63,326 bases of DNA from Halogeometricum pallidum JCM 14848 (GTDB lineage: Archaea; Halobacteriota; Halobacteria; Halobacteriales; Haloferacaceae). This document shows, piece by piece, positions 58,147 through 63,326 of the stretch (its first letter is position 1; every line of letters begins with the position of its first letter). The notes under the pieces are model-generated. The model saw only the letters and a list, made by a program, of their open reading frames with translations, had not been told where the DNA came from and did no database searches. The position numbers were made by a program, and so were the translations under genes. Location: the NCBI RefSeq assembly GCF_000337095.1, contig NZ_AOIV01000021.1, positions 138,083 through 201,408 of the forward strand. Reading direction: 5' to 3'.

Positions 58147-59502
58147 TTAGACTCCGGCCACGTTCCGCCAGTTGTACCCGACCGACGCCAGTCGCTGGGC
58201 CTTTCGATAGTACGGGCGTTCGTACCGCCTTCGAGCGGCGTCGCCGTCGGCGGCGTTCGAATCACCCCACAATCGGACGCGCCCGTCCGCCGTGTACGCG
58301 AGTATCTGCTCGCCCGGGAAGTCGAACAGCTTCGACGGCGGGAAGCGAGCCACGCGCCCGTCGACGCGACCGAGTTCCTCGCCGCGGTGGTCGACGACAA
58401 GTCCCTCCCGGTCGAACATCTCGTACACGAGGTCGTGGGTGCCGTTCCCGTCGAGGTCGACCGGAAGCGTCGAGTACACCGGGTAATCGAGTTCTCGTTC
58501 CTCGCCGGTGAACGCGTCCCACGCGTACTCGTCCATCTCCTCGTAGGCGGCGTGTTTGTTCGCGCCGGCCATCGCCACTCGACCGTGTTCGCCGAGTCGC
58601 GCCGTCCACCCGGTGTGCATGTGTCCCTCTTCGAGCGCCGTCCACACCCGTTCGCCCGACGCGTCGTACGCGACGACCCGCGGCGGTTCCTCGACGTGCG
58701 ATTCCCGGCAGGTGAACACCGTCCACTCTCCGGTCCGGTGGTCCAACGTCGGTTGCACGATGTCGGAGTGTCCCGACCAACTGTCCCGGTCCGCACACCA
58801 CAGTTGCTCGCCCGCGTCGAGTTCGAGAAGTCGTTCGCCCCAGAGCACCTCGTCGACGCCGTCGCCGTCGATATCCAACACCGGACATTGGTGACTCCCC
58901 TGCGCGCCCGGGTCCTCGCGCGCGAACGTCGTCTCCCACCGTCGACTCAGGTCGGGGTTCCAGCCCTGGAGCTTCATCTCCCGGTACGTACCCTGTGCGG
59001 TGACCAGAACGGGATCCCCTCGAACGTGTCCGCCGAATATGAAGTTCCGATAGGCCATGCTCATCGGTTCGTAGGGGTAGTCCGGCCAGTCCCACGTGCC
59101 GGTCGTCTCGCCGGTCGCCGCGTCGATGCGCGCGAGTCGGTGGCCGTCGAGGGAGAACGGGTGGTCCGGGTCGACCGTGTCGACGTACCAGATCTCCTCG
59201 ACGCCGTCGCCGTCGAGGTCGAACGGGAAGACGGGGCAGAACCACACCCCCGGAACGATTCCGTCACCGACGTCGTGCGTCCACGCGACCGTCTCGTCGG
59301 CCGTGACGAGCGTTAGTTTCAGCGTATCCGTCGGGAGGGTGAAGTGGTTCTGCCCCGGGTCGACACCGGGGTGAGCGCTGTGGACGCAGAGGAGTGCGTC
59401 GGGACCGTTACCGCCCGTCGCGACCGGTACCGCTCGCAGTTGTCGCATCGCGTCCGCCACCGATACCTCGTACAGTACGTCGAGCGAGATCTCGTCTGCC
59501 AT
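58147..59502 (-). CDS. Rhamnogalacturonan-lyase-like beta-propeller protein
   Basis: 451 residues with calcium-binding FG-GAP/VCBS-like loops DLDGDGVEEIW, DIDGDGVDEVLWG and DLDGNGTHDLVYE spaced through a propeller, Trp-rich strands and His-containing loops (HQCPVL). The pattern recalls PL11 rhamnogalacturonan lyases, but it is shorter than the typical ~600 residues and has no signal peptide. Catalytic residues cannot be verified by eye. Convergent with DUF2264, which supports a plant polysaccharide role. A non-enzymatic propeller is the alternative. Confidence 0.65.
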   Translation of the reverse strand: MADEISLDVLYEVSVADAMRQLRAVPVATGGNGPDALLCVHSAHPGVDPGQNHFTLPTDTLKLTLVTADETVAWTHDVGDGIVPGVWFCPVFPFDLDGDGVEEIWYVDTVDPDHPFSLDGHRLARIDAATGETTGTWDWPDYPYEPMSMAYRNFIFGGHVRGDPVLVTAQGTYREMKLQGWNPDLSRRWETTFAREDPGAQGSHQCPVLDIDGDGVDEVLWGERLLELDAGEQLWCADRDSWSGHSDIVQPTLDHRTGEWTVFTCRESHVEEPPRVVAYDASGERVWTALEEGHMHTGWTARLGEHGRVAMAGANKHAAYEEMDEYAWDAFTGEERELDYPVYSTLPVDLDGNGTHDLVYEMFDREGLVVDHRGEELGRVDGRVARFPPSKLFDFPGEQILAYTADGRVRLWGDSNAADGDAARRRYERPYYRKAQRLASVGYNWRNVAGV

Positions 59503-59642: not shown

Positions 59643-60485
59643 ATGAAGGACTTTCCGACGACACCGACCGCCGCTGACGCGCCCGCCGAGACGTTCGAAC
59701 GGGGTCACCTCTGGTTGCTCGAACTGATCGACGGTGCCGGGTTGCGTTTCCGACTCGACGACGACGGCGTCCTCCGCTTCGGCGACGAGACCCGCGTCTA
59801 CGACGACTCCGACGACATGCCCGCGTCGTACCAACACGCCGTCCGGCACGTCCGCGAGAACCTCGACCGCAGTGCGCTTCGAGACGCCGTCGCCGACCCG
59901 AGAGACGTGGTCTTCTTCGGGCAGTCAACCCAGCGGCAGTCGCTGGAGTACGATTGGGAGCGCATCCCCTCGTTTCTCGGCGTCGACGTCTGGTCGGCAT
60001 CGGCCGACGGGTTCCGACCGCCCGACACCGCCGAGAAGATATTCGAACGCCTCGGTCTTCGTCCCGTGAACGCCCTCGAACGGGAGCGAAACACGCGCGA
60101 TTTCGACCCCGACTCGTATGCGGTTCCCCGGTCGGCGTGGTACGACGGGCCGGCGAAGGGCGTCCTGGTTCGGAACAAGCGCGGCGGACGCGCTAAACTG
60201 CGGCATCCCGAGTTCAGCGAACGAGACCCGGACCCTATCGACGTCTCGGCCGAAGCGTTCGCGCGGGAGTGCGCGACGCGGCGGCGGTTCGAGCGAGTCG
60301 CGGACCGAATCGAGGCGATGGGATGGACCGTGACGGTGGACGTGCTGTACGACCGGGTGCTCGAAGCCATCGTTCGCGAGCAACACCGACGGCTGGACCA
60401 CCGCGAGAGCGACGTGGACATGGCGACGTTCCGGTCGGAAATCGCGTCGCTGACGCGGGCGTTCGTCGAATCGCCGGACGAGTAG
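59643..60485 (+). CDS. RNA-ligase-fold protein with all catalytic motifs altered (pseudoenzyme)
   Basis: 280 residues. The sequence follows the haloarchaeal RNA-ligase (nucleotidyltransferase) family: WLLELIDGAGLRFRL, DDVVFF-like region VVFFGQSTQRQSLEYDW, FLGVDVW, PRSAWYDGPAKGVLVRN and RAKLRHPEF. In motif I the nucleotidyl-accepting Lys of ExKxDG is Leu28 (ELIDG). In motif III FGE is FGQ (Gln94). In motif IV EGVV is KGVL (Lys172). Motif V Lys185 remains. Without Lys28 the ligase cannot form the AMP-enzyme intermediate. It may have become a nucleic-acid-binding or regulatory protein. The start at 59643 (MKDFPTTPTA) fits the family. Confidence 0.78.
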   Translation: MKDFPTTPTAADAPAETFERGHLWLLELIDGAGLRFRLDDDGVLRFGDETRVYDDSDDMPASYQHAVRHVRENLDRSALRDAVADPRDVVFFGQSTQRQSLEYDWERIPSFLGVDVWSASADGFRPPDTAEKIFERLGLRPVNALERERNTRDFDPDSYAVPRSAWYDGPAKGVLVRNKRGGRAKLRHPEFSERDPDPIDVSAEAFARECATRRRFERVADRIEAMGWTVTVDVLYDRVLEAIVREQHRRLDHRESDVDMATFRSEIASLTRAFVESPDE

Positions 60486-60797: not shown

Positions 60798-62678
60798 ATG
60801 GCGAATATACTGAGTAAGAACCAATCCATGAGACGATTACAAGCGAACGACTCCGACGGGGACCCGGCGGGACTGACTGCCACGCGGCGAACGGTGCTGA
60901 AGGCCCTCGGGGTCAGTGCGGGACTGGCGGGATTCGGCGCGTCGACGGGGATGGCCGCGCAGAGCGACGAGTCGTGGTCGGTCGTCACCCTGCCCGACAC
61001 GCAGTTCTACGCCCGGGACATGACGCGGTACCCCGCCGAGATGACGCAGTGGATCGCCGATAATCACACCGAAGAGAAGGAGAACATCGCCTTCGTGAGC
61101 CACGTCGGCGACGTGGTCGAGAACGCTGACACCATCGCAGAGTGGGAACACATGGACGATGCCATGTCGACGCTCGACGGCGTCGTTCCCTACTCAACCG
61201 TTCCCGGCAACCACGACTGGGAGGAGAACATGGAGCGGAGTTCGTCGATCGCGAACTACAAGGAGTACTTCGGCGCGTCGAGGTACGAGGCGCGGGAGTA
61301 CTTCGGGGGCGCGGGACCCACGAACGGCGACCCGAACCGCGACGACCTCAACACCTACCAGTTGTTCTCCGCGGGCGGGTACGACTTCCTCCACCTCGCC
61401 TTGGAGTGGGAACCGCCGGGGAGCGTCGACGACCCGTCGACGCCCCTCGGGTGGGCCCAGCAGGTGCTCGACGAGCACCCCGACCGGGCGACCATCCTCA
61501 CCACGCACTCGTACCTTCGAAACCCCCCGGCTCGACTCGACAGAGTCCAGGAGAAAGGGGACAAAGACGGAAACTCGGGTCAGACGGTCTGGGAGGAACT
61601 CGTCGCGCCGAACGCGCAGGTGTTCATGGTCCTCTGCGGCCACTGGTATAAAGAAGACGCCGAGGCCGACCAAATCTCGACGAACGAGTCCGGCGAGGAA
61701 GTGTACGAGATGCTGGCGAACTACCAGGCGCGAGAAGACGGCGGTCACGGGCTCCTCCGGCAGATCGAGTTCCAACCCGGCGAGGGCGGGAGCAGTGACG
61801 CGCCCGACCGCATTCAGATGCGCACGTACTCCCCAGTCACCGGAGTTGAAGACGACGAGGACAGCACGTTCGGCTTCGACCTCGACTTCGACGCCCGCTT
61901 CGGAAGCGAGTCCGCGGAGTCGCCGGAAACCGCGTTCCAGCAGGGAGCCGACGGCTACGGCGGCACGGTCGACACCACGCTCTACGAATCCGACCCGATG
62001 ACGGCGTTCGGGAGCGACGAGACGATGGTCGTCGACAGCGACGAACCGCCGAACTCGGGGAGCGCCGCGCAGGCGCTCCTCCGATTCGACGACGTCGTCG
62101 GCGACGGCGACGGACAGATTCCCGCCGGTTCGACCGTCGACGCCGCCACGCTGGTTCTCGAGTGCGTGAACGACGGCGACGGAGCGACGGTGCATCAGAT
62201 GCGAACCGGGTGGGACGACGGCGACACCTGGGACTCGGTCGGCGGCGGCATTCGAACCGACGGAACGGACGCGGCGTCCGACGCCGTGGCCGAGACCGGT
62301 CCCGTCGAAGTAGGGATGTTCGCCGTCGACGTCACGCAGAGCGTACAGGCGTGGGTCGACGGCGACCGGAACCTCGGGTGGGCGTTCGCCCCCACCGGGC
62401 CGGACGGCTGCGACCTCAAGACGGCGGAGAGCGACAACCCGCCCCGCCTCACCGTCCAGTACACCGCATCCGACGGGGGCGGAGGCGGCGACGACACCGT
62501 GACCGGCGACGTCGACGGCGACGGCGACGTCGACGAGGAGGACGTCGAAGCCATTCAGCGGTCGGTGGCGGGCGAGGACGTCGACATCGACGCCGACGCG
62601 GCGGACGTCGACGGCGACGGTGACGTGGATATCGGCGATGCGATCGGTGCGAGAAATATCAGCGAGGAAGGACAATGA
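60798..62678 (+). CDS. Tat-exported metallophosphoesterase with DNRLRE and dockerin domains
   Basis: 626 residues. Tat signal (TATRRTVLKALGVSAGLAG, Arg30-Arg31), then a calcineurin-like phosphoesterase: LPDTQFYA (Asp67), HVGDVVEN (Asp105), PGNHDWEE (137-140), TTHSYL, CGHWY. Residues ~390-555 resemble a DNRLRE-type carbohydrate-binding/cell-surface domain. The C terminus (~575-622) is a dockerin with two calcium loops, DVDGDGDVDEEDVEAI and DVDGDGDVDIGDAIGA. The last GHxH has become GHWY. It should be exported folded and then bound by a cohesin. The stop overlaps the next gene's ATG. The true start may be Met11 (60828). Confidence 0.88.
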   Translation: MANILSKNQSMRRLQANDSDGDPAGLTATRRTVLKALGVSAGLAGFGASTGMAAQSDESWSVVTLPDTQFYARDMTRYPAEMTQWIADNHTEEKENIAFVSHVGDVVENADTIAEWEHMDDAMSTLDGVVPYSTVPGNHDWEENMERSSSIANYKEYFGASRYEAREYFGGAGPTNGDPNRDDLNTYQLFSAGGYDFLHLALEWEPPGSVDDPSTPLGWAQQVLDEHPDRATILTTHSYLRNPPARLDRVQEKGDKDGNSGQTVWEELVAPNAQVFMVLCGHWYKEDAEADQISTNESGEEVYEMLANYQAREDGGHGLLRQIEFQPGEGGSSDAPDRIQMRTYSPVTGVEDDEDSTFGFDLDFDARFGSESAESPETAFQQGADGYGGTVDTTLYESDPMTAFGSDETMVVDSDEPPNSGSAAQALLRFDDVVGDGDGQIPAGSTVDAATLVLECVNDGDGATVHQMRTGWDDGDTWDSVGGGIRTDGTDAASDAVAETGPVEVGMFAVDVTQSVQAWVDGDRNLGWAFAPTGPDGCDLKTAESDNPPRLTVQYTASDGGGGGDDTVTGDVDGDGDVDEEDVEAIQRSVAGEDVDIDADAADVDGDGDVDIGDAIGARNISEEGQ

Positions 62679-63326
62679 GCGAGCGAATCAACGTGTTGGC
62701 CGTCTGCGCCCTGCTGATGGTGGTCGCCATCATCCCGGTCGGGGCCGCGACGGTGACGCAACCGACGACGACGGCAGCAACGATCAGTGTCGGCGAGGAA
62801 GCGACGGCGGCACCGAACGGAACGATAACCGCGGAACCGGGCGAGACCGTCACGGTGAGCGTGTGGGCGAACGCGTCGTCGGTGAGCGGGTATCAGACCA
62901 GACTCACTTTCGACCCCGCCGTCGTACGGGTCGAGGAGGTATCGGGGAGCGACGACTTCGCCGCCCCGGTCTCGAACGTGGACAACGAGAGCGGCACCGT
63001 CGCGTTCAACCAGATTCGCGCTTCGGACGGCGACGATCCCGTCCTGGCCGAAATCACGCTGACGGTGGTCGGCGAGGCCGGCGAAAGCGCCGTGCTCTCG
63101 TTCGAGGAGTCCGAGACGAAGTTCGCCACCGACGGCGGACAGACGTTCGTCCCGCAGACGATCAACGACGTGACCGTGAGCGTCGAGGAGGCGGAAACGG
63201 AGACGGAGACAGAGACGCCCGCACCCACGACCGAAGCACCGACGACTACCACCGAACAACCCACCACCACCACGGAAGAACCGACGACTACCACCGAACA
63301 ACCCACCACCACCACGGAAGAACCGA
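62675..63326 (+). CDS. Cohesin-domain secreted protein, 3' end outside window
   Basis: 217 codons are visible, still open at the window end. Signal peptide (LAVCALLMVVAIIPVGAA, ~7-24). The cohesin domain (~37-170) has the typical opening EPGETVTVSVWANASSVSGY, QTRLTFDPAVVRVEEV and VAFNQIRASD, closing with AVLSFEE. A Thr/Glu/Pro-rich linker of repeats follows (TTTTEQPTTTTEEP), probably O-glycosylated and leading to an anchor outside the window. ATG overlaps the stop of the dockerin gene (ATGA), so the two are translationally coupled. The pair is likely to interact, but affinity is inferred. Confidence 0.87.
   Translation, partial: MSERINVLAVCALLMVVAIIPVGAATVTQPTTTAATISVGEEATAAPNGTITAEPGETVTVSVWANASSVSGYQTRLTFDPAVVRVEEVSGSDDFAAPVSNVDNESGTVAFNQIRASDGDDPVLAEITLTVVGEAGESAVLSFEESETKFATDGGQTFVPQTINDVTVSVEEAETETETETPAPTTEAPTTTTEQPTTTTEEPTTTTEQPTTTTEEP
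63241..63326 (+). repeat. 42-bp tandem repeat coding a Thr/Pro/Glu linker
   Basis: Two copies of a 42-base unit (GACGACTACCACCGAACAAC onward) with the same phase, encoding TTTTEQPTTTTEEP twice, reaching the window edge. Such perfect repeats mutate in copy number by slippage, which would vary the linker length. Confidence 0.85.

Follow-up and report, generated by a model that had tools for sequence, protein, structure and literature searches.

A haloarchaeal homolog of Rnl2-type RNA ligases with a dismantled AMP site, probably a pseudoenzyme maintained by selection

The window analyzed here is a stretch of 63,326 nucleotides from the genome of Halogeometricum pallidum JCM 14848. Near its end we found an uninterrupted gene whose product is likely a selected pseudo-RNA-ligase: its sequence shows that the AMP site is lost and that the protein is under purifying selection, and most likely it binds RNA without sealing it. 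The parts of this reading differ in strength. That the protein is a pseudoenzyme is highly probable, and for RNA binding as the retained function the chance is about even or slightly better.

We propose the following explanation. A protein with the Rnl2-type nucleotidyltransferase fold would no longer be able to form the covalent lysyl-AMP intermediate, because the nucleophilic lysine and most of the AMP- and metal-holding residues are replaced. Normal purifying selection would still act on the fold and on the remainder of a conserved, partly basic surface, and an RNA-binding shell (R35, H69, R76, K179, R183 and the C-terminal R215, R245 and R264) would be kept. Most likely the protein binds RNA of the type recognized by the ancestral ligase (nicked RNA, structured RNA or RNA ends) but neither uses ATP nor seals strands, and it may act as an RNA-end-masking, chaperone or regulatory protein.

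The gene, its family and the AMP site

The gene and the sites discussed below are as follows.

59643..60485, + strand: putative pseudo-RNA-ligase ORF (Rnl2-like, PF09414 relative), 280 aa; frame intact; 428 bits / 5e-131 against an HMM of catalytically intact homologs only
59721..59735, + strand: degenerate motif I, ELIDG, residues 27-31, K28L; every intact homolog and three halovirus ligases have K here
59787..59789, + strand: motif Ia Arg replaced, R49E; equivalent of T4 Rnl2 R55 by spacing (residue role from PMC3149579)
59913..59924, + strand: degenerate motif III, FFGQ, residues 91-94, E94Q; equivalent of T4 Rnl2 E99
59982..59984, + strand: adenine-contacting Phe of motif IIIa replaced, F114V; equivalent of T4 Rnl2 F119 by spacing (role from PMC3149579)
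60153..60164, + strand: degenerate motif IV, AKGV, residues 171-174, E172K; K172 is shared by genus members G000, G002, G003 and G004 and by Natronomonas aquatica
60195..60197, + strand: motif V lysine K185, kept; Arg in sister species G002 and G004, Thr in G003
60240..60482, + strand: C-terminal helical domain with basic residues kept; R215, R238, R245 and R264 are present in 0.89-0.98 of homologs that lack the motif I lysine

The ORF runs from an ATG at 59643 to a TAG at 60483-60485 and contains 280 codons with no internal stop. By itself the window protein gave no significant match to Pfam or NCBIfam and fell below the PF09414 threshold, so that its assignment to PF09414 needed the intact relatives. 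Intact homologs about 60% identical to the window protein score about 1e-16 against PF09414 RNA_ligase, and the sister protein L005, which lacks the motif I lysine, still exceeds the curated cut-off of this family. With its score of 5e-131 to the HMM of intact members, the window protein belongs to PF09414, and to the Rnl2 type, as a homolog. Judged as an Rnl2-type enzyme, it lacks the lysine of motif I KxxG (K28L), the motif Ia Arg, motif III Glu, motif IIIa Phe and motif IV Glu (R49E, E94Q, F114V and E172K), and has the motif V lysine (K185).

An AlphaFold2 model of the window protein, built from few alignment rows, was poor (pLDDT 54) and unusable for pocket geometry; residues 201-280 reached a local pLDDT of 70-89. 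The best PDB neighbors of a medium-confidence model of an intact halovirus homolog (pLDDT 68) were T4 Rnl2 on nicked duplex and TbREL1. This search served fold assignment only, and the neighbors are consistent with the family assignment. Comparing profiles with T4 Rnl2 alone gave no useful signal, as there is little sequence similarity outside the motifs, and the mapping of residues to T4 Rnl2 therefore rests on motif identity, on spacing and on the Pfam match of both. The Ia, III and IIIa residues lie at +21, +66 and +86 from the motif I lysine position in the haloarchaeal proteins and at +20, +64 and +84 in T4 Rnl2.

The motif IV residue of T4 Rnl2 is E204. In this enzyme, AMP is linked to K35 of motif I, the adenine lies near F119 of motif IIIa, the ribose is contacted by E99 of motif III and R55 of motif Ia, and the phosphate is contacted by K225 and K227 of motif V (PMC3149579). 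At the corresponding columns 28, 49, 94, 114, 172 and 185, the window protein has L, E, Q, V, K and K, and three halovirus relatives have K, R, E, F, E and K. The first five columns are K, R, E, F and E in 94-100% of the intact set, in which the motif V lysine column is weaker (0.68). Since all six residues are intact in the halovirus outgroups, the loss of the AMP site is derived.

None of the five AMP-site columns is kept in the window protein, compared with 67 of the 71 other columns conserved in at least 90% of the intact set (Fisher p = 7e-6). Columns 28, 94 and 172 had served to select the intact set, however, so that R49 and F114 are the ones that offer a fair and independent test. Both residues are gone in all four genus members (G000, G002, G003 and G004). 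Among homologs lacking the motif I lysine, R49 is kept in 0.39 and F114 in 0.16, compared with a mean of 0.87 for the other conserved columns. At the level of sequence it is established that the AMP site is dismantled, and covalent step-1 chemistry would be impossible at motif I. We infer that the protein would show no ligase activity in vitro.

The original prediction described the substitutions in motifs I, III and IV within an intact frame and well-kept family sequence. The alignment with the 60%-identical intact homologs (EKVDG, FFGE and AEGV), which is free of gaps around all three motifs, bears out these substitutions, and the unbroken 280 codons and the 67 kept columns agree with the rest of the description. 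R49E and F114V had been missed, as had the retention of K185 of motif V.

No alignment placed a motif I lysine elsewhere in the protein. It has five lysines, at positions 2, 132, 172, 179 and 185, among which only K172 is both gained and shared throughout the clade. It is very improbable that the protein is a rewired, active ligase in which K172 of motif IV, K179, or K185 of motif V took over as the nucleophile. K172 does occur in all four genus members and in N. aquatica, every one of them without K28, and modeling of the Diplonema ligase DpRNL has led to the proposal that the nucleophile moved to the motif V lysine there (PMC4599027). However, K172 is also found in L008, which keeps K28; position 172 is Ala in 90% of the homologs without the motif I lysine; and K185 is Arg or Thr in the sister species. 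Further, the motif III Glu, the Ia Arg and the adenine-contacting Phe are gone as well, and ATP would be poorly held.

It is also improbable that the protein acts only in step 3, sealing RNA that another enzyme has already adenylated, so that its own adenylylation is not needed. Mutants of T4 Rnl2 deficient in adenylylation still seal pre-adenylated strands (PMC3149579). Against this, the equivalents of the AMP-holding residues R55, E99 and F119 are lost, and no other Rnl2- or Rnl3-type ligase that could make AppRNA was found in the host genome or the genus. RtcB, which works with GTP, is present in the host genome. Thus, both a relocated lysine and a step-3-only enzyme are less likely than a pseudo-ligase, since the AMP-holding residues are gone and the candidate lysines are inconsistently conserved.

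Selection on the gene and its conserved residues

Omega values were estimated by pairwise codon maximum likelihood (GY94-type, F3x4). The window gene and two 85%-identical orthologs gave 0.115, 0.090 and 0.103, and omega = 1 was rejected (2dlnL 96-122). Pairs of intact ligases gave 0.085-0.20, pairs elsewhere lacking the motif I lysine gave 0.094-0.165 (0.43 in one very close pair), and other genes of the same locus gave 0.005-0.13; the comparison with L005 was saturated and was left out. Since the values of the trio resemble those of intact pairs and of the locus genes, selection on the protein as a whole is unrelaxed and the gene shows no decay. The sequence thus combines what defines a pseudoenzyme, namely the absence of catalytic residues from a homolog of an enzyme and a frame held by purifying selection.

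Internal stops were seen in one homolog among about 150 matches listed in the class search. This copy, L114 (G118:C1:78799-79323), has two in-frame stop codons and is the only clearly decayed copy among the matches listed. That the window gene is itself heading for loss, with catalysis recently gone and the frame still unbroken, is the most improbable of the explanations considered. The stops in the G118 homolog and the patchy presence of the family, which has a homolog in 204 of the 391 sampled genomes of the class, are what such a course could leave behind. However, dN/dS in pairs without the lysine (0.09-0.165 apart from the very close pair) is the same as in intact pairs, frames are intact in all other matches listed, and the loss of the lysine is common to every placed member of whole genus-level clades. 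The original prediction of a pseudoenzyme under selection is therefore supported by the AMP-site loss together with dN/dS of 0.09-0.115, with no sign of relaxed selection or of widespread frame decay in the relatives; the non-ligase role itself is inferred.

R35, H69, R76, K179, R183, R215, R245 and R264 are kept at 0.88-0.98 in homologs without the motif I lysine. Several of these retained residues may serve folding, not RNA binding.

Recurrent loss of the catalytic site in haloarchaea

The loss is wider than the original prediction saw; it recurs across haloarchaea and is no peculiarity of the window gene. We aligned 111 homologs, which were taken from among the best-scoring matches and are not a census. 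Of these, 39 keep the Lys of motif I and the Glu of both motif III and motif IV; 61, spread across many genera, are without the motif I lysine, and 11 keep this lysine but are without one or both glutamates.

When the catalytic columns were left out of the tree, the clade of the window protein (G000, G002, G004 and G003; 96, a starred branch) sits among intact ligases. When the tree was rooted on the halovirus ligases, the motif I lysine was ancestral and nine changes were needed, a parsimony count that rests on weak branches, with three of the changes forced by starred branches. A single clade of all proteins lacking the lysine was rejected (delta lnL 100, p-AU 0.000175). The predicted catalytic site is thereby shown to have been lost more than once independently in the family. 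Joint and separate loss could not be distinguished for the window clade and N. aquatica (p-AU 0.29), and independent-pairs tests of co-loss gave no significance, with too few supported pairs.

Active-looking and inactivated forms occur close together. G001, from the same genus as the window host, keeps K28, R49, E94, F114 and E172. The N. aquatica homolog (L002; L-A-K) occupies the chromosomal position at which L043 and L058, both intact orthologs, are found, and the intact L013 also matches this position over shorter flanks. The conversion in N. aquatica therefore appears to have happened in place. In some genus-level clades, for example the large genus g2, all sampled members that the tree contains lack the lysine. 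The copies in Haloferax gibbonsii and Natronomonas pharaonis also lack it and are annotated as hypothetical. The public annotation of these two genes (L122:5001-5831 and L124:3950-4795) starts about 37-40 codons downstream, so that motif I and its surroundings are missing from it, although the annotated starts are preceded by conserved N-terminal sequence and an in-frame ATG or GTG.

The replacements at the lost positions are not random. At position 28, 17 of the 23 inferred changes from Lys led to L, Y, W, A, H or M (background 0.43, p = 0.003), and none led to D, E, G, S, T, N or P. At position 94, 12 of 14 changes led to V, W, A or I (p = 0.003), and the predominance of Ala at position 172 was described above. 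This pattern suggests a cavity that was filled rather than one that drifted, as a lead only, since the counts depend on weak branches. It is conceivable, though somewhat short of an even chance, that in haloarchaea a cellular Rnl2-type ligase has repeatedly and convergently become a protein that binds RNA or acts as a sensor without catalysis, through hydrophobic filling of the ATP pocket, and that this class has been kept across whole genera. The window protein's own E94Q and E172K are polar and lie outside the hydrophobic trend.

The same bias at positions 28, 94 and 172 could also mean that the former ATP pocket was remodeled into a site for a new ligand or partner; the protein would then be more than a relic that binds RNA, namely a sensor or an adaptor. 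We regard this as unlikely, since mere filling of a buried cavity for stability would be expected to give the same bias, the counts depend on a weakly supported tree, and the two polar replacements in the window protein break the bias. For the pseudo-ligase reading that we prefer, the job of the gene is probably something other than joining RNA, because the site is dismantled, the rest of the protein is under selection and the same loss has occurred more than once among its relatives.

Genomic context and comparison with known systems

Searches of the H. pallidum genome found no other PF09414 protein. Since no second ligase of Rnl2 type was found, there would be no active sister ligase of this type for the window protein to regulate by dimerization. 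Identity as the partner ligase of HARP was rejected, as the HARP ligase is Rnl3/PF18330 (Lig_C domain) and no PF18330 protein was found in the genus. A search of viral contigs with the window protein gave no match.

No conserved operon partner was found beyond local synteny, the neighbors being conserved only among close relatives. Divergent to the pseudo-ligase gene lies a gene for a rhamnogalacturonan-lyase (RGL11 C-terminal) / FG-GAP type protein (58147-59502, - strand). On the other side, 60798-62678 (+ strand) encodes a metallophosphoesterase of secreted type that carries CBM96 and, at its C terminus, a type I dockerin. It is overlapped by a gene at 62675-63326 (+ strand) that starts with a cohesin domain and a T/E/P-rich linker; the two form a dockerin-cohesin pair in a haloarchaeon. 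In the sister species (L035 and L036, from G002 and G004), the pseudo-ligase and metallophosphoesterase genes are separated by a sugar-type ABC transporter operon, which the window genome (L034) lacks at this position.

Elsewhere, a second PF09414 paralog of 358 aa with EKFDG and a sub-threshold Pfam score (L023:2364-3440 and L031:2368-3447) lies directly downstream of an intact family member, making a tandem two-ligase pair. As a candidate partner of the window protein it was rejected: it is absent from the genus of the window host, where the search for it gave the family gene already described. A transporter-like gene (510 aa) adjoins the family gene in 14 loci without the motif I lysine, in five genera including g2 (e.g., L113, L107 and L118), and gyrA/gyrB-like genes lie near such loci in g2 and g11. 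Both kinds of neighbor probably reflect shared ancestral synteny.

To our knowledge, RNA ligases of the Rnl2 fold have been studied almost only as enzymes, and little is known of the role of their cellular homologs. No description of inactive Rnl2-type proteins in haloarchaea was found in the open-access literature searched, outside which most subscription papers lie. The presence of active-looking and inactivated orthologs within one genus, and in one case at the same chromosomal place, amounts to a natural experiment. What is preserved by selection in the inactive forms would be a function independent of ligation, and it is directly testable in genetically tractable haloarchaea. Further, homology-based annotation mislabels some of these proteins as "RNA ligase", and "hypothetical" hides their relation.

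Among known proteins, the haloarchaeal "RNA ligase family protein" (PF09414), for example WP_012945014.1 of Haloterrigena turkmenica, belongs to the same family over its full length and has the same C-terminal domain. It keeps EKVDG, R, FGE, F, EGV and K, whereas the window protein keeps only the motif V lysine. T4 Rnl2 and the trypanosome RNA editing ligases represent the PF09414 fold family of the intact relatives, and their motifs I, Ia, III and IIIa are spaced almost identically, but the window protein is without their catalytic residues. The RNA ligase encoded by gene 217 of halovirus HGTV-1 and its IMG/VR relatives, about 25-32% identical to the window protein and of the same layout, have all six AMP-site residues intact, unlike the window protein. 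The N. aquatica protein L002 and the plasmid homologs of H. gibbonsii and N. pharaonis are also without the motif I lysine (ELIDG, EYVVG and ELPTG, respectively), through losses that are at least partly separate. The nearest precedent in the open-access literature searched is Diplonema DpRNL, an Rnl2 that, like the window protein, has a predicted altered ATP site; unlike the window protein, DpRNL is predicted to be rewired and active, and keeps the motif I lysine and all motifs (PMC4599027).
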